64,000 bases of DNA, taken from assembly GCF_024158035.1 (NCBI RefSeq), contig NZ_JAMZEK010000001.1, forward strand, positions 1,158,001-1,222,000. Reading direction: 5' to 3'. Shown here one piece after another: positions 2,139 to 48,060 of this stretch. The notes beneath the pieces were generated by a model. That model had not been told where the DNA came from, made no database searches, and worked only from the letters and a program-made list of their open reading frames with translations. This stretch comes from Dyella lutea (GTDB lineage Bacteria > Pseudomonadota > Gammaproteobacteria > Xanthomonadales > Rhodanobacteraceae). The first letter of the stretch is position 1, and each line of letters starts with the position of its first letter. A program made the position numbers and the translations under genes.

Positions 2139-3239
2139 ATGACTGCGAAGACCGTACTCAACGACACCCATCGCGCGCTTGGCGCCCGCATGGTCGATTT
2201 CGGCGGGTGGGACATGCCGATCAACTACGGCTCGCAGATCGAGGAGCATCACGCCGTGCGCGGCGACGCCGGCATGTTCGACGTGTCGCACATGACGGTG
2301 ATCGACCTGCACGGCCCGCGCACGCGCGACTTCCTGCGCCACCTGCTGGCCAACAGCGTGGACAAGCTCAAGGTGAGCGGCAAGGCGCTGTATTCGTGCA
2401 TGCTCAACGAGCGCGGCGGCGTGATCGATGACCTGATCGTCTACTTCTTCGACGACGCCCATTACCGCCTGGTGGTGAATGCCGCCACCCGCGCCAAGGA
2501 TCTGGCCTGGATCGAGGCACAGGCGAAGGACTTCGACGTGGTGGTGAAGGAGCGCCCCGAGTTCGCGATGATCGCGGTGCAGGGACCGAACGCGCGCGGC
2601 AAGGTCATTGCGCTGCTGCACGAAGGCGATCGTCCGCGCATCGAGAAGCTGGGCAAGTTTGCCGCCGCGGCCGCGCAGGGTCCGCACGGCATGCCGCTGT
2701 TCGTCGCGCGTACCGGCTACACCGGCGAAGACGGCTTCGAAATCATCGTGCCGGAAGAGCATGCCGTGGCGTTGTGGCAGGCGCTGGTCGACGCAGGCGT
2801 GAAGCCCTGCGGCCTGGGCGCACGCGACACCCTGCGGCTGGAGGCGGGCATGAACCTGTACGGCCAGGACATGGACGAGGACGTCTCGCCGTGGGAGGCC
2901 AACCTCGGCTGGACCATCGCCTTCGACGAGGGTCGCGACTTCATCGGCCGCAGCGCGCTCGAGGCGCAGAAGGCCGAAGGCGTGAAGCGGGTGATGGTCG
3001 GACTGGTGCTGGACGACAAGGGCGTGTTGCGCCACGGCCAGAAGGTGCTCACCGCACAGGGCGAGGGTGAGATCCTCTCGGGCAGCTTCTCGCCGACGCT
3101 GGAAAAGGCGATCGCCTTTGCGCGCATCCCGGCCGGTGAGCCGGGCGACATCCGCGTGGACATCCGTGGTCGCGAGCTGCCGGTGCGTCTGGTGAGATAT
3201 CCGTTCGTGCGCGACGGCAAGCCCTGCGAGGGCATCTGA
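2139..3239 (+). CDS. gcvT: Glycine cleavage system T protein (aminomethyltransferase)
   Basis: GcvT transfers the methylene group from the aminomethyl arm of lipoyl-GcvH to tetrahydrofolate, releasing ammonia and giving 5,10-methylene-THF in the cytoplasm. At 366 residues it matches the usual length (E. coli 364). Family landmarks are [19 protein letters not shown] near residue 20, GVIDDLIVY at 94-102 with the catalytic aspartate, [12 protein letters not shown] in the middle, and a C-terminal [19 protein letters not shown]. gcvH follows 92 bases downstream. gcvP is not in the window, so the glycine-cleavage genes are split here. Confidence 0.97.
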
Positions 3240-3282
3240 CTTCCTGCCGTCGGGGCGACTCGGCGGCACCGGACGCACGCGC

Positions 3283-3288
3283 TAGAAT
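3283..3288 (+). promoter_or_regulatory. Candidate -10 element of gcvH
   Basis: TAGAAT in the context GCTAGAATCGCCG, 43 bases before the gcvH ATG, looks like the -10 box common in Xanthomonadaceae. The -35 region is poor. gcvH may have its own promoter in addition to read-through from gcvT. Confidence 0.35.
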
Positions 3289-3331
3289 CGCCGCGTCCAC
3301 CTTCCTCCCACTCCAACGACTGGACCCGATC

Positions 3332-3727
3332 ATGAGCGAGATTCCCGGCGATCTGAAATTCCTCAAGTCCCACGAATGGGCCCGCGTCGAGGACGACGGC
3401 ACCGTCCGCGTGGGTATCTCCGACCACGCCCAGGCGGCACTGGGCGACCTGGTGTACGTCGAGCTTCCCGAGGTCGGCGCCAGCGTGCAGGCCGGCAACG
3501 GTGTCGCGGTGGTCGAGTCGGTGAAGGCCGCTTCGGACATCTACGCGCCGGTGTCCGGCGAGATCGTGTCGGTGAACGAGGCGCTGACCGACAAGCCCGA
3601 GACGATCAACGAAGACGCGTTCGGCGACGGCTGGCTGTTCGTGATTCGCCCGAGCGATCGCGGCGAGCTGGACGAGCTGCTCGATGCCGATGCGTACGCC
3701 GAGCAGATCGAGAACGAAGACCACTGA
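3332..3727 (+). CDS. gcvH: Glycine cleavage system H protein (lipoyl carrier)
   Basis: GcvH carries the aminomethyl intermediate on a lipoyl-lysine between GcvP, GcvT and the L protein. The 131-residue length is standard. The N terminus has [27 protein letters not shown], typical of the family, and the lipoylated lysine is K65 in [13 protein letters not shown]. The C terminus [10 protein letters not shown] is also conserved. It lies just downstream of gcvT on the same strand. A strong GC hairpin (3752-3777) follows the stop. Confidence 0.98.
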
Positions 3728-3751
3728 CGGAACCGCTTCGTCACCGTTCCC

Positions 3752-3777
3752 ACGACGGCCGCGCGAGCGGCCGTCGT
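3752..3777 (+). terminator. GC-rich hairpin after gcvH
   Basis: ACGACGGCCGC at 3752-3762 pairs perfectly with GCGGCCGTCGT at 3767-3777 around a GCGA loop, 25 bases past the gcvH stop. There is no T-run, so it may be a weak terminator or a 3'-end stabiliser. Confidence 0.5.
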
Positions 3778-4009
3778 CGTGTCTGGAGGGTGTCGACGCG
3801 GGTGTCGGGAAAAAAAAATTAGCGGCCCGACGGGGTGCCGGTCGTCTTCCATTCATGCATTTCAGCAGGGCTCCGGATGCCGTTTCGTGCGGCGAACCTC
3901 CGTGCGTGCACGGCCGGTTCCATGCGGACATTTTTTTCTGGCTGTGGTCGCAAACCTTTATGCGGTGCGGCCTCCGAGGCATGCGGGTGAATTTTTAGTG
4001 TTTTTAAAT

Positions 4010-4025
4010 AGACGTCTATACGTCC
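4010..4025. promoter_or_regulatory. Tandem met boxes (MetJ operator) upstream of metJ-tail
   Basis: AGACGTCT at 4010-4017 is an exact match to the 8-base met-box consensus. It is followed directly by ATACGTCC at 4018-4025 (six of eight). MetJ dimers bind tandem 8-base boxes cooperatively with SAM, so this fits autorepression. A possible -10 TACACT (4036-4041) would place the boxes over the -35 region; TTGATT at 4031-4036 is an alternative -35. Which promoter is used cannot be decided from sequence. Confidence 0.75.
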
Positions 4026-4181
4026 TTATGTTGATTACACTATCGCCTGCAATGCCTTGTGTGGCGGGACTTTTCGGCGGTCCGGGCGGGCGTCGGAGGG
4101 GTGTCTGCGGACGCGCAAAATCAATTGACAGTTGAAATCTTCGGGAATAGCTTTCGCACCAGATTCTGGGGAACAGGTGCT

Positions 4182-4727
4182 ATGTCGGCAGTGAAGTACG
4201 TACAACCCTATGTCGAGCACGGCGAGAAAGCTGGCGCGGTACGCAAGATCACCGTCTCGATTCCACTTCACGTCCTGCGTCTTCTGTCCGATCTGCGCAC
4301 CCACCGCCAGGTGAACAATCTTCGGCACGCCACCAACAGCGATTTGCTGGTCGAGGCGTTCCTTCACGCTTTTACTGGGCAACCACTGCCAACTGATGAG
4401 GAGCTGAGACGAACCATGGCCACTGCCAAGAAAACCGCTGCAAAGAAACCGGCCGCCAAGAAGGCCGCCAAGAAGACCACCGTGAAGAAAGTCGCCGCCA
4501 AGAAGCCGGTGGCGAAGAAGCCGGCCGCCAAGAAGGCTGCCGTGAAGAAGGTTGCCGCCAAGAAGGCTGCTCCGAAGAAGGCTGGTGCCAAGAAGCCGGC
4601 CGCCGCCAAGAAGACCGCCGCCAAGAAGACCGCGGTGAAGAAGGTCGCTGCCAAGAAGGCCGCGCCGAAGAAGGCCGCTCCGGCCAAGGTGGCCAAGGCC
4701 ACCAAGACGGCCAAGGCCAAGAAGTAA
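4182..4727 (+). CDS. metJ: MetJ-type methionine repressor fused to a histone H1-like lysine-rich tail
   Basis: Residues 1 to about 78 are clearly MetJ, the ribbon-helix-helix repressor that uses SAM as corepressor: RKITVSIPL (the DNA-contacting beta strand, with K22 and T24), [13 protein letters not shown]-like and [13 protein letters not shown] are near-identical to E. coli MetJ. Instead of the last helix of the 105-residue E. coli protein, the frame runs on without a stop into 103 residues (79-181) holding 40 lysines. These are mostly xAAKK, xVKK and PKK pentads, like histone H1-like or AlgP/HctB-type proteins. ATG 4182 is chosen because homology starts there and GGGGAA lies 8 bases upstream; a GTG at 4059 is in frame but has no family support. 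ATG 4416 (M79, MATAKK) could be a second internal start. Met boxes lie upstream. The MetJ assignment is firm; the role of the tail is inferred. Confidence 0.9.
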
Positions 4728-5017
4728 GTCGCTACATAACTAGAAAGTTCGTTCGAATTTGTTTCCCCGCGGTGCCCAGCGCGGGGAAGCCCTTCGAAAG
4801 CGATTCGTCCCGGCCATGCGCCGGGATGCTTCGTTCTGGGGCCGGGAAAAGCCGTTCCGGGCCTTTTGCCGCGGCGGGCGCTGCGCCCGTTTGCCGTGAC
4901 TCCGCAATGCGGTTACCTTTCGCTCATCCGCGCCGCGCCGCACCTGGGGGCAGGTCGTCGCTCCTGGATTTACGGGGGGAAAAAGCGCGGGTATCTGATG
5001 CCACTCAGCGAGAGATC

Positions 5018-44210: not shown

Positions 44211-44358
44211 GCATGAAAGCGTAGCAGCTGGCCGGCGCAATGGGCTTCGCCAGGCCGGCCCGGCCTGGCCTGGCCCGGCCGCCCGTCGCGGTGGTCGCCT
44301 CGCTGGATCGTTTCAACTGCACCGGATTTCTACATGATCAAATCTTATATGGGCGTAT

Positions 44359-44374
44359 AGACGTCTATACGTCT
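44359..44374. promoter_or_regulatory. Tandem met boxes (MetJ operator) of the metX operon
   Basis: AGACGTCT at 44359-44366 is an exact met-box consensus, followed directly by ATACGTCT at 44367-44374 (seven of eight). A weaker third box, GGGCGTAT, may lie at 44351-44358. The boxes end one base before the -35 TTGACA, so MetJ-SAM would block RNA polymerase. The same core, TAGACGTCTATACGTC, occurs upstream of the metJ-tail gene at 4009. Confidence 0.88.
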
Positions 44375-44608: not shown

Positions 44609-45634
44609 ATGTCCGCCCAGCTCGCCCACCTCCCCGTCACCGCGTCGGCCCAACCCCAGGCCGTTGCCACGCCATCGGTCTGTCCGTCCGCGCTCACCCG
44701 CCAGCGCAGCGCGCGCCGCATCACGCTGGAGCCCAAGTACGGCGGCGGCGCGCGGGGTGTCGAGGTCAGCTATCTCTGGTGCGGCGCGCCGGACGCGCCG
44801 ACCGTGGTGGTGCAGGGCGGGATCTCCGCCAGCCGCGACGTGGTGGCGCCGGAAGGCGAGGCCGCCGGCTGGTGGCAGGCGCTGGTCGGCGACGGCCAGG
44901 CGATCGACCTGAACCGCTACCGCGTGCTCTCGATCGACTGGCTGAGTCCGGCCGAGCTCGGCTCCACCGCCGTCTCCAGCGAAGACCAGGCCAACGCGAT
45001 CAGCGCGCTGGTCGACGCCCTCGGCATCGGCCGCATCGCCGCCTTCGTCGGCTCGTCCTACGGCGCGATGGTTGGCCTGGCGTTCGCCAAGCTGCACCCG
45101 TGGCAGCTCGACCAGCTGGTGCTGCTGGCCGGCGCGCACCGCGCCCACCCGATGGCCACCGCCCTGCGCAGCGTGCAGCGCGGCATCGTGCGGCTGGGCC
45201 AGTCCTCCGGCCAGCTCGACGAGGCGCTCGGCCTGGCGCGCCAGCTGGCAATGACCACCTACCGCGGCAGCGAGGAATTCGCCCGCCGCTTCGCCGGCTC
45301 CCCCGAACTGCGCGAAGACCGCTTCCACTTCCCGGTGGAGGACTACCTCGACCAGGCCGGCCGCCGCTTCGTCGAGCGTTTCGACGCCGAGCGCTTCCTG
45401 GCCCTGTCCGAGTCGATCGACCTGCACGACGTGCCACCGGAACAGGTGCCCACGCCGACCACGCTGATCGGCTTCCCCTCCGACCGGCTGGTACCGCTGG
45501 CCGACCTGTGCGAGCTGCAGCGCCGGCTCGCCGGGCCGGCCACGCTGGAAGTGGTCGAGTCGCCGTACGGCCACGACGGCTTCCTCAAGGAAACCGACCG
45601 TCTCGCCCTGCTGCTGCGCCAGGCGCTGCCCTGA
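44609..45634 (+). CDS. metX: Homoserine O-acyltransferase (MetX type)
   Basis: MetX-type enzymes acylate L-homoserine with acetyl- or succinyl-CoA, the committed step to methionine. The 341-residue alpha/beta hydrolase fold has nucleophile S150 (GSSYGAMVG), D292 (FPSDRLVP) and H322 (YGHDGFLKE), plus VQGGISASRDV at the oxyanion region. Which acyl-CoA is used cannot be told with certainty. It is the first gene of metX-metB-hom under MetJ boxes, a sigma-70 promoter and a SAM riboswitch. The ATG has AGGAG eight bases upstream. A REP pair lies between it and metB. Confidence 0.9.
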   Translation: MSAQLAHLPVTASAQPQAVATPSVCPSALTRQRSARRITLEPKYGGGARGVEVSYLWCGAPDAPTVVVQGGISASRDVVAPEGEAAGWWQALVGDGQAIDLNRYRVLSIDWLSPAELGSTAVSSEDQANAISALVDALGIGRIAAFVGSSYGAMVGLAFAKLHPWQLDQLVLLAGAHRAHPMATALRSVQRGIVRLGQSSGQLDEALGLARQLAMTTYRGSEEFARRFAGSPELREDRFHFPVEDYLDQAGRRFVERFDAERFLALSESIDLHDVPPEQVPTPTTLIGFPSDRLVPLADLCELQRRLAGPATLEVVESPYGHDGFLKETDRLALLLRQALP

Positions 45635-45640
45635 ATCGAC

Positions 45641-45727
45641 GTTGTGGGAGCGACTTCAGTCGCGACCGCTTTGCCCCAAGCCCGCCGAAGGGGAGGAGCG
45701 TCGCGACTGAAGTCGCTCCCGCACAAG
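45641..45727. repeat. Inverted REP pair inside the met operon
   Basis: Arms at 45642-45666 and 45700-45726 are near-perfect reverse complements, each with a CGACTTCAGTCG palindrome beside GTGGGAG (GCGGGAG in the second). It sits in the 135-base gap between metX and metB and could stabilise the metX mRNA or lower expression of the distal genes. Confidence 0.85.
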
Positions 45728-45769
45728 CGCGGCCATCCCCGTTCGACATCTGATGTACCGGAGAAACCC

Positions 45770-46957
45770 ATGACCAACTCGGCCCCCAGCACCCGCGCCG
45801 TCCGCGCCGGCATCGAGTCCGACACCCAGCACGGCGCCATCGTGCCGCCGCTGCACCTGTCGACCAACTACAGCTTTACCGGGCTGGGCGGCAAGCGCGC
45901 CTACGATTACTCGCGCAGCGGCAATCCCACCCGTGACCTGCTCGGCGAGGCGTTGGCCGATCTGGAGCAGGGCGCCGGCGCGGTGATCACCGCCAGCGGC
46001 ATGTCGGCGGTGGCGCTGGCGCTGGAACTGGTGCCCGCCGGTTCCACTGTGCTGGCCGCGCACGACTGCTACGGCGGCACCTGGCGCCTGCTCGATGCGT
46101 GGGCGAAGAAGGGGCGCTTCCGCGTAGTGTTCGCCGACCTCACCGACCCGGCCGCGCTGGCTGCCGGCCTGGCACATCGTCCGGCGCTGGTGTGGGTGGA
46201 GACCCCGTCCAACCCGCTGCTGCGGATCACCGACATCCGCCACGTGGCGCATGCCGCCCACACCGTCGGCGCGCTGGTGGTGGTGGACAACACCTTCCTC
46301 TCGCCGGCGCTGCAGCAGCCGCTGGCGCTGGGTGCGGACCTGGTGGTGCACTCCACCACCAAGTACATCAACGGCCACAGCGACGTCGTCGGCGGCGCGG
46401 TGGTCGCGCGCACGCCGGAGCTGGCCGAGCAGATCAAGTGGTGGGGCAACTGCAATGGTCTCACCGGCGGCGCCTTCGACAGCTACCTGACCCTGCGCGG
46501 CCTGCGCACGCTCGGCGTGCGGCTGCGCCAGCACGAGGCGAATGCCGCGCGCATCGCCGAACACCTGGCCGGTCACGGCGCCGTGCGCAAGATCTACTAC
46601 CCAGGCCTGGCCGAGCATCCGGGGCACGCGCTGGCGGCGCGCCAGCAGCAGGGCTTCGGCGCCATGCTCAGCTTCGAGCTGCACGGCGAGGTGGAGGAAA
46701 TCGCCGCCTTCGTCGACGGCCTGGAATACTTCTCGCTGGCCGAGTCGCTCGGCGGGGTGGAGAGCCTGATCGCCCATCCGGCGTCGATGACCCACGCCGC
46801 GATGGCGCCGGAAGCGCGCCGCAACGCCGGCATCGCCGATACGCTGCTACGCCTGTCGGTGGGCATCGAGGATGGCGATGACCTGCTGCGCGATCTCGAC
46901 GCGGCGTTGCGCCGCGCCATGGCCGCCGCCGCGTCGAAACGCAAGGTGCGTGCATGA
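45770..46957 (+). CDS. metB: Cystathionine gamma-synthase/sulfhydrylase family, methionine pathway
   Basis: A 395-residue PLP enzyme of the Cys/Met-metabolism family. It would condense acyl-homoserine with cysteine (cystathionine gamma-synthase) or with sulfide (sulfhydrylase). The PLP lysine is K198 in HSTTKYINGHSDVVGG; PLP-phosphate and ring contacts lie in ITASGMSAV and VVDNTFLSPALQQP; YDYSRSGNPTRD and the C-terminal SLGGVESLIAHPASMTHA are also diagnostic. metB is chosen by operon context, but metZ-like activity is possible. CCGGAGAAACCC precedes the ATG. It overlaps hom by four bases. Confidence 0.88.
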   Translation: MTNSAPSTRAVRAGIESDTQHGAIVPPLHLSTNYSFTGLGGKRAYDYSRSGNPTRDLLGEALADLEQGAGAVITASGMSAVALALELVPAGSTVLAAHDCYGGTWRLLDAWAKKGRFRVVFADLTDPAALAAGLAHRPALVWVETPSNPLLRITDIRHVAHAAHTVGALVVVDNTFLSPALQQPLALGADLVVHSTTKYINGHSDVVGGAVVARTPELAEQIKWWGNCNGLTGGAFDSYLTLRGLRTLGVRLRQHEANAARIAEHLAGHGAVRKIYYPGLAEHPGHALAARQQQGFGAMLSFELHGEVEEIAAFVDGLEYFSLAESLGGVESLIAHPASMTHAAMAPEARRNAGIADTLLRLSVGIEDGDDLLRDLDAALRRAMAAAASKRKVRA

Positions 46958-48060
46958 GCGCGGTGGTGGCGGACAAATCGGGCCCGGCGACGCGTTCGCT
47001 GAAAGCGCCGGCAGAGGCGCCGACCGCCGCCATCGTGCTGCTGGGCACGGGCGTGGTCGGCGGCGCCCTGCTCAAGCTCCTGTGTACGCCGGCCGCCGCG
47101 CGCATCCGGCTGGTCGGGGCGGCCAATTCGAAGCGCCAGCAGACCGAGCCGGCGAAGCTCGCCAACCGTCAGCTGCGCGAGCAGATCCGCACCGAGGGCG
47201 ATCCGCGCGACAACGCCGCGCTGCTTGCCGCGCTGGACGCCAGTGGGGTGGCGGCGAAAGTGGTCGTGGATGCCACCGCCAACGCCTCGCTGGCCGCGCG
47301 CCACGCCGAATGGCTGGAGCGCGGCTATCACGTGGTCACCGCCAACAAGGCGCTGGCCGGCGGCGAACTGACCGGTTGGCGGGCGCTGCAGGCGGCCACC
47401 GCCGCTGGCCGGGCACAGTACGGCGATTCGGCCACCGTCGGCGCCGGTCTGCCGGTGCTGTCCACACTGCGCCGCCTGCGCGGCTGCGGCGATGCGCTGC
47501 TGACGCTGGAGGGGGTGTTCTCCGGTTCGCTGTCCTACCTATTCAATCTGTACGACGGCAGCGTGCCGTTCTCCTCCCTGCTCGCCGATGCGCGGCGGCT
47601 CGGCTACACCGAGCCGGACCCGCGCTCGGACCTGTCCGGCGAGGACGTGGCGCGCAAGCTGCTGATCCTCGCCCGCCACGCTGGCTTCTCGCTCAACGCC
47701 GACGAAGTGGAGGTGGAAAGCCTGGTGCCCGAGGCGCTGCGCGGCCTGTCCACCGAGGCCTTCCTCGAGCGGCTGGCCGAGCTGGACGCTCCCCTGGCGG
47801 CGCGCGTCACCGAGGCCCGCGAGCGCGGCCACGTATTGCGCTACCTGGCCCGGCTCAACCAGCGCGGGCATGCCCGCGTCGGGCTGATGGAGGTGCCGCC
47901 GACGCATCCGGCGGCGCGCCTGTACGGCACCGACAACCAGTTCGCGCTCACCACCACCCGCTACAACACCCAGCCGCTGGTGATCCAGGGACCGGGTGCC
48001 GGGCCGGAGGTCACTGCGCAGGCCCTGCTCGGCGACGTGCTGGCGCTGGCCGGGGGCTGA
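46954..48060 (+). CDS. hom: Homoserine dehydrogenase, short form without ACT domain
   Basis: Reduces aspartate semialdehyde to L-homoserine with NAD(P)H, feeding MetX. The nucleotide motif IVLLGTGVVGGALL is at about 27-40, and the catalytic lysine K132 is in VVTANKALAGG. FSGSLSYLFNLYDG and the double-aspartate EPDPRSDLSGEDVARKL are typical of the catalytic domain. At 368 residues it has neither an aspartokinase domain nor a C-terminal ACT domain, so threonine feedback is unlikely. The ATGA overlap with metB shows coupled translation. It places homoserine supply under methionine control. Confidence 0.93.
   Translation: MSAVVADKSGPATRSLKAPAEAPTAAIVLLGTGVVGGALLKLLCTPAAARIRLVGAANSKRQQTEPAKLANRQLREQIRTEGDPRDNAALLAALDASGVAAKVVVDATANASLAARHAEWLERGYHVVTANKALAGGELTGWRALQAATAAGRAQYGDSATVGAGLPVLSTLRRLRGCGDALLTLEGVFSGSLSYLFNLYDGSVPFSSLLADARRLGYTEPDPRSDLSGEDVARKLLILARHAGFSLNADEVEVESLVPEALRGLSTEAFLERLAELDAPLAARVTEARERGHVLRYLARLNQRGHARVGLMEVPPTHPAARLYGTDNQFALTTTRYNTQPLVIQGPGAGPEVTAQALLGDVLALAGG

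Follow-up and report, generated by a model that had tools for sequence, protein, structure and literature searches.

In-frame nested genes that are read from internal starts are familiar from bacteria, as in the long and short forms of cheA and the forms of infB. A second arrangement of interest here is the histone H1-like tail, and the part of the literature on AlgP and PhaF of Pseudomonas drawn upon in this report describes an H1-like C-terminal domain, disordered and rich in Lys and Ala, with reported DNA binding (PMC9239181). Regarding the methionine repressor MetJ, Table 1 of Leyn et al. (2014) shows no MetJ for its four genomes of Xanthomonadales, the order in which Dyella is placed (PMC4239095), and a study of Rhodanobacter R12 reports, in a mass-spectrometry section without domain detail, that its MetJ is upregulated with nitrate (PMC12146267).

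The locus described here brings these themes together. It lies in the window, i.e., the whole 64,000-nucleotide stretch of Dyella lutea DNA that was analyzed, and its features are collected in Table 1. In the reading that we consider likely, a nested H1-like gene has its promoter on one side of metJ and its leader, still intact, on the other, so that one mRNA would give rise to both a MetJ-H1 fusion and a free H1-like protein. In the following, Rhodanobacteraceae are labeled f1, while f3, f4, f6, f9, and f12 denote other families in the sample of the order.

Table 1. Features of the metJ-H1 locus and of the methionine genes in the window (positions count from the first letter of the window)
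Feature	Position	Strand	Basis
gcvT-gcvH, neighbors common to stand-alone H1 loci	2139..3727	+	NCBIfam; synteny in 5/6 loci
Tandem met boxes AGACGTCT ATACGTCC upstream of metJ	4009..4025	.	second-best genome match, 1 mismatch
Inferred promoter of metJ-H1, TTGACA-N17-TAGC	4125..4151	+	conservation across f1; similar motif at stand-alone H1
Fused reading frame MetJ-H1, 181 aa	4182..4727	+	translation; Pfam/NCBIfam; family loci
MetJ domain, residues 1-78; C-terminal segment of E. coli MetJ missing	4182..4415	+	Pfam/NCBIfam above cut-off; matches 1cma/1mj2
Conserved leader block in metJ, TTTACTGGGCAACCACTGCCAACTGATGAGGAGCTGAGACGAACC	4371..4415	+	wobble constraint; same sequence is untranslated leader of stand-alone H1 genes
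Putative Shine-Dalgarno GAGGAG of nested H1 gene	4398..4403	+	12 nt 5' of ATG
H1-like coding sequence nested in the fused frame, 103 aa, starting with the ATG of Met79	4416..4727	+	NF038053 alignment; Met conservation
Terminator-like hairpin 3' of the H1 stop	4806..4828	+	3 such sites found vs 2.3 expected from shuffles
Tandem met boxes before metX-metB-hom (44609-48060)	44358..44374	.	best genome match, 0 mismatches

The fused frame and probable methionine control in Rhodanobacteraceae

Conceptual translation of the frame meets no internal stop. Its residues 5-89 match the Pfam model of MetJ (E 1.3e-35, 121.7 bits against a cut-off of 25), the NCBIfam MetJ equivalog is matched with 128.2 bits (cut-off 110), and no other MetJ match occurs in the genome. 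The tail, counted from residue 79, comprises 103 residues with 40 Lys and no Arg, Asp, or Glu, and its KK doublets are mostly spaced by five. These data bear out the sequence-only reading, which had identified the N-terminal 78 residues as MetJ and had seen the frame run on without a stop into a tail of this length and composition.

When aligned to E. coli MetJ, the window protein contains the conserved beta-strand and helix-B segments, and among 29 aligned Rhodanobacteraceae MetJ proteins the positions K22, T24-S26, and E58-Q67 are invariant, segments which we take to contact DNA and SAM. The alignment stops at query residue 89 and chain residue 90, and the C-terminal part (about residues 91-105 of E. 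coli MetJ) is missing; the assignment of the core to MetJ is made on the curated equivalog and not on this part. It had been claimed that the tail replaces the C-terminal helix of MetJ. The absence is real, but the tail is not necessarily what displaced it, because MetJ proteins without a tail in another family of the same order (79-82 aa, ending in ...PTDEELARPE) end at the same point. In metJ, first, second, and third codon positions have changed 184, 60, and 893 times, respectively, and MetJ therefore evolves under normal constraint as a functional protein. A structure model, made for the MetJ-H1 monomer only and kept out of the functional evidence, has a pLDDT of 50, with core blocks at 52-71, residues 89-181 below 50, and a disordered tail.

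The sequence-only reading had further raised the matter of how widely MetJ homologues carry the tail, and of whether resequencing would disclose a stop or a frameshift at the junction. MetJ was matched in 193 of 197 Rhodanobacteraceae genomes, among the matches listed, and tail status comes from the 160 loci that were read, duplicates included, which correspond to 123 distinct coding sequences. A complete lysine tail, of 34 to 309 residues, is present at 155 of them, the other five end at contig ends, and none lacks a tail. The short MetJ frames of G156 and G157 are contig ends, and, from their coordinates, the MetJ frames of G055, G106, G117, and G183 begin no more than 12 bases from one; weak MetJ matches in G110 and G150 fall outside the loci read. 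All 26 genera, with one genome for each, have the tail, and the named ones with the same gene include Dyella, Rhodanobacter, Luteibacter, Frateuria, Fulvimonas, and Oleiagrimonas, besides metagenome bins that bear other labels; in the MetJ part, the window and Dyella ginsengisoli LA-4 do not differ. Beyond this family, the order sample has MetJ in 28 of 101 genomes, 15 from f1 and 13 from f9 and f12, and all 13 of the latter loci are untailed. In the class sample MetJ occurs in three of 274 genomes, our own counted; the frames of the other two measure 112 and 118 aa, and they were rejected as candidates for a fusion outside f1. Among the genomes sampled, tailed MetJ was thus seen only in Rhodanobacteraceae. 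Given the 26 genera and the named isolates, the proposal that the fusion is a sequencing or annotation artefact, owing to a missed stop or frameshift, is refuted by independent genomes and has a negligible probability: no such lesion was found at the junction in any of the 155 complete loci, and nothing in support of an artefact was found.

Among the genes metX-metB-hom, which follow the second pair of met boxes, metX and cystathionine gamma-synthase score above their NCBIfam cut-offs and hom below. The two sites proposed at the outset, at 4010 and 44359, proved to be the top two matches of the genome (1 and 0 mismatches), with a pattern that had been loosened at one base to fit the window sites. 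At up to three mismatches this pattern returns 23 matches against 20 for the reversed control, hence only the top sites are meaningful. Across Rhodanobacteraceae, the best met-box pair lies at -166 to -187 of metJ in all 27 loci checked; in 20 of these at most 4 of 200 shuffles did as well, and in seven the signal is weaker (6 to 178 of 200). Since met boxes occur both at metJ and at metX-metB-hom, it is very probable that MetJ functions as a methionine repressor and controls its own gene, with SAM dependence predicted, and the H1-like part shares its transcript if the promoter discussed later is correctly placed. A three-mismatch match is also present about 150 nt 5' of the siroheme synthase gene CysG (L238, G000:C4:415009-415025), at a level where control matches are likewise many.

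A putative internal start and a conserved leader within metJ

The sequence-only reading was right about the fusion, which holds family-wide, and incomplete in taking the fusion as the whole story, having overlooked the ATG at 4416 and the conserved sequence that precedes it. This in-frame ATG, at the start of the tail, is found in 25 of 26 genera; a Met falls within five codons 3' of TDEEL in 122 of 123 distinct f1 sequences, and the residues after it are Ala and then Lys-rich in nearly all of them. Position 1 of the NCBIfam H1-like model NF038053 aligns to residue 79, with scores under the cut-off of 80 bits (32.7, and 49.2 in the genome search), and the H1-like part reaches 36.3 bits with PF07382, for which the cut-off is 40. 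Being Lys/Ala-rich, acid-free, and disordered, the tail has the composition of H1-like proteins, and by analogy it may bind and compact DNA.

The codons ahead of this ATG are constrained at the nucleotide level. In 116 distinct sequences, the block codons ACT, GGG, CCA, CCA, GAG, GAG, and AGA have no synonymous variation, GAG GAG being present in 116 of 116; AGA accounts for 0.5% of the Arg codons in a background of 23 long open frames taken from the window. Codon -3 encodes P, Q, T, or K, yet it always ends in A. Fitch counts on a tree built from the upstream metJ codons only for 122 sequences give an average of 16.5 wobble changes for each upstream codon, whereas a codon of the core, which spans -7 to +3, has 1.6 (p 2.7e-7 by Mann-Whitney), and for the same residues of untailed MetJ the synonymous codons vary freely (13 loci, two families). 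Minor codons are common elsewhere in metJ, so the rare codons of the block prove nothing by themselves, and it is their invariance that counts, as the minor codons elsewhere do vary. The block is not uniform: three codons in its 3' half vary (8, 12, and 6 changes), and its 5' edge is not sharp, because synonymous change declines gradually, about twofold, across some 17 codons ahead of it.

The spacing between GAGGAG and ATG is 12 nt in 149 of 175 loci and 9 nt in nine, with 17 loci, the untailed ones included, devoid of the GAGGAG pattern. A 12-nt spacing is longer than optimal. Overall, the locus has the mark of an in-frame nested gene, namely an internal start that is conserved and preceded by putative initiation signals.

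Other readings of the block were discarded. Hammerhead-like or met-box-like features, perceived by eye, have their key positions broken in relatives, and a conserved hairpin, or a fold sequestering the Shine-Dalgarno sequence, is contradicted by folds that differ from genus to genus. No virus-borne copies of the block core were found. When 3700-5000 was compared with Rfam, nothing reached a gathering score; the best match, below the cut-off, was an anti-hemB-like double hairpin at 4764-4834, 3' of the H1 stop (E 0.01), which is probably a terminator structure.

One lineage provides a natural control. In G006, the only member of its genus in the sample, GTC GTG stands in place of the ATG, GAGGAG is lost, and the block has decayed to GCC TTC ACT GGT CAG CCT CTG CCT ACC GAT GAC GAG CTG AAG CGC, while a lysine-rich tail of 140 residues is still fused. 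The fused form can therefore persist without the leader, a case that is suggestive only, since just one lineage shows it and translation might still begin at its GTG.

Stand-alone H1-like genes, their leader, and a shared promoter motif

The same leader occurs where metJ does not. Seven genomes, belonging to f3 (G198, G209, G218), f4 (G199, G210, G226), and f6 (G201), have no MetJ match and carry stand-alone H1-like genes of about 80-180 aa, each with the leader sequence directly 5' of its ATG, as in the metJ block. The f3 leader reads TTTCACTGGGCAACACACACAACCACTAACGAGGAGCTAAGACCCATC-ATGGCCACTGCC, and AGGAG precedes all seven starts. The five leaders tested all align to the 3' end of the window metJ better than any of 1000 shuffles; those of G198 and G226 were read outside this test. 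The pattern CTGGGCAAC-N5-30-GAGGAGCTNAG has a single occurrence per genome in 71 of 299 genomes, distributed by a hand tally as 67/76 in f1, 3/3 in f3, 1/1 in f6, and 0/219 in the others, and the reversed pattern has no match in the 299 genomes; the f4 leaders are too diverged for this strict form. Lysine-rich genes without the leader also exist in these families, such as L313 of G226. There is a weak similarity between the leaders and the ends of some untailed metJ genes, with uncorrected p values of 0.002-0.02 in some of 75 pairs. Elsewhere in the class, 29 loci besides our own were scanned for the leader before H1-like genes and a testable start was found in 20, the best of which was equalled by 7 of 100 shuffles; this is a weak negative, because the script missed our own internal start and four of five added loci of the order.

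The genomic context is shared as well. At five of six stand-alone H1 loci, gcvT-gcvH lies upstream and the serine-hydrolase gene of the window downstream, with tonB also at the locus in f3 and G210 and not found in f6; G199 has none of these neighbors within its 12 kb. Between gcvH and the H1-like gene, f4 (G210) and f6 have another frame of about 450 aa, and in the window this place is taken by metJ. On this evidence the 'tail' is also a gene in its own right, given its conserved internal start, its own leader, and stand-alone relatives at the same locus, and for this reason the locus probably makes a second product besides the fused repressor.

These observations have to be weighed against a simpler view, namely that MetJ-H1 is the sole product and that the conserved codons have another role, such as pacing translation before the tail or stabilizing the mRNA. 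It would agree with the frame being open in all 155 complete loci, and with the tail that G006 keeps without an internal ATG. However, in metJ-free genomes the same nucleotides stand before stand-alone H1 genes as an untranslated leader, and the junction Met is kept in 122 of the 123 distinct sequences, so that we regard this view as distinctly unlikely.

The leader is accompanied by a promoter motif. In 124 of 124 distinct f1 loci, TTGACA is found 55-63 nt 5' of metJ and is followed 15-19 nt on by TAG, ATA, or TAA, and the distance from this motif to the internal ATG is 289-297 nt in 123 of 123 loci (291 nt in the window). For six of the seven stand-alone genes, TTGACA-N14-19-ATTAGTTT occurs 254-307 nt 5' of the ATG, and the seventh, in G226, has a variant. 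Alignments of the stand-alone promoters to those of f1 beat all 200 shuffles in five of six loci (p 0.02 for f6), and inspection by eye of 15 untailed metJ genes revealed no such promoter in the preceding 130 nt. A consensus sigma-70 scan lists no site at the 4125 motif, and the metJ-H1 promoter is accordingly proposed from its conservation.

The motif bears on whether the block is itself a promoter, internal to metJ and serving the H1-like gene, instead of a translation leader. The extent of the constraint, about 45 nt conserved 5' of the ATG and weaker before, would suit such an element. The motif of the sister families, though, is 254-307 nt upstream, and, if the shared promoter is right, their leader falls well inside the transcript, which favors a translation element; moreover, the block has no match to the sigma-70 consensus, in a scan that also misses the promoter proposed at 4125. 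An internal promoter is, in our judgment, improbable.

The long 5' regions of the stand-alone genes deserve mention on their own. In L239-L243, L311, and L312, the length from the promoter motif to H1 is close to that of metJ plus leader in the window, and these regions may be structured RNA or decayed metJ; a search of six of them for a relic of the MetJ protein found none, with all scores below 0 bits. At three f3 loci (L239, L243, and L311), in genomes without a MetJ match, CGTCTAGACG, the center of a tandem met box, is one base 5' of TTGACA, and in L311 the leader ends in AGACGTCT adjoining the ATG; these met-box-like sequences are possibly a relic of MetJ control. A second lysine-rich stretch of our own genome (L002, G000:C1:177166-177426) resides in a frame of 835-854 aa, and similar long lysine-rich frames of about 820-890 aa recur in the order; our guess is that it is a topoisomerase-type tail.

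A different weighting of the two products would make the free H1-like protein the one that matters, with MetJ-H1 arising on the side and being cleaved or degraded, so that processed MetJ would do the repressing. The higher conservation of the leader core at synonymous sites, compared with the rest of metJ, and the highly variable tail length speak for it. The codon-position changes of MetJ, which fit a functional protein, speak against it, as do the met boxes 5' of metJ and of metX-metB-hom and the stop-free junction in every complete locus, and we find it unlikely.

In the two-product reading that we prefer, an H1-like gene would have been present at the locus before metJ, and metJ would now lie, in frame and stop-free, between the promoter and the translation leader of this ancestral gene, whether the H1 unit captured metJ or the sister families lost it. 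One mRNA, transcribed from the promoter near 4125, would offer two start sites. Initiation at 4182 would yield MetJ-H1, a SAM-responsive repressor that binds met boxes and bears a flexible cationic tail, which by analogy with the AlgP and PhaF domains is expected to add non-specific DNA affinity and may so influence repression. Tighter binding, wider spreading, or a methionine-linked nucleoid role, as put forward in the sequence-only reading, may be consequences of such a tail. Initiation at the ATG at 4416, by means of the GAGGAG at 4398 and of the leader embedded in the metJ codons, would yield the free H1-like protein; the block would then act in translation, and both products would exist in the cell. 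Going further, the SAM level may set the supply of both the repressor and the H1-like protein, as one nested gene under the operator of MetJ, and couple methylation capacity to nucleoid packaging, with the leader having a dual use as C-terminal codons of the repressor and as an RNA element retained in repressor-free relatives; this extension is speculative and, for now, doubtful.

Comparison with known systems

Both fused H1-like tails and internal starts are kinds already known. Their combination, in which a repressor of solved structure shares its codons with the leader of a chromatin-like gene nested in it, appears to be new, as none was found in the literature searched, and among the matches listed from the open-access literature neither a fusion of MetJ with H1 nor a nested gene of this sort was described. 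If the proposed arrangement is correct, a structurally solved, classic repressor has a nucleoid-protein tail throughout a bacterial family, and the locus offers a clean example from nature of conserved protein codons on which a regulatory leader is superimposed. What is read as one gene would probably make two products, and proteomics or genetics aimed at 'MetJ' of these bacteria may pick up H1 too. Since relatives with tails of 34-309 residues exist along with untailed MetJ, the effect of such a tail on a sequence-specific repressor becomes testable.

With E. coli MetJ (PDB 1cma), the window protein shares the family defined by the curated model, the conserved segment, and met boxes before both metJ and met genes; it differs in the missing C-terminal part and in being in frame with an H1-like gene. 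AlgP and PhaF are alike in that their N-terminal domain is structured and the Lys/Ala-rich domain after it disordered, whereas their N-terminal domains are not MetJ-type repressors and the part of the source used here mentions no nested start (PMC9239181). The H1-like part resembles the stand-alone bacterial H1-like proteins (NF038053; Hc2, PF07382) in its MATAKK-type start, its pentamers rich in KK and A, and its size of about 100 aa, but it is below both curated cut-offs and nested in the 3' end of metJ. As for cheA and infB, one frame has two starts and the short form is the C-terminal part; unlike these, the short form here corresponds to an independent gene in relatives, and its leader doubles as codons of a repressor.
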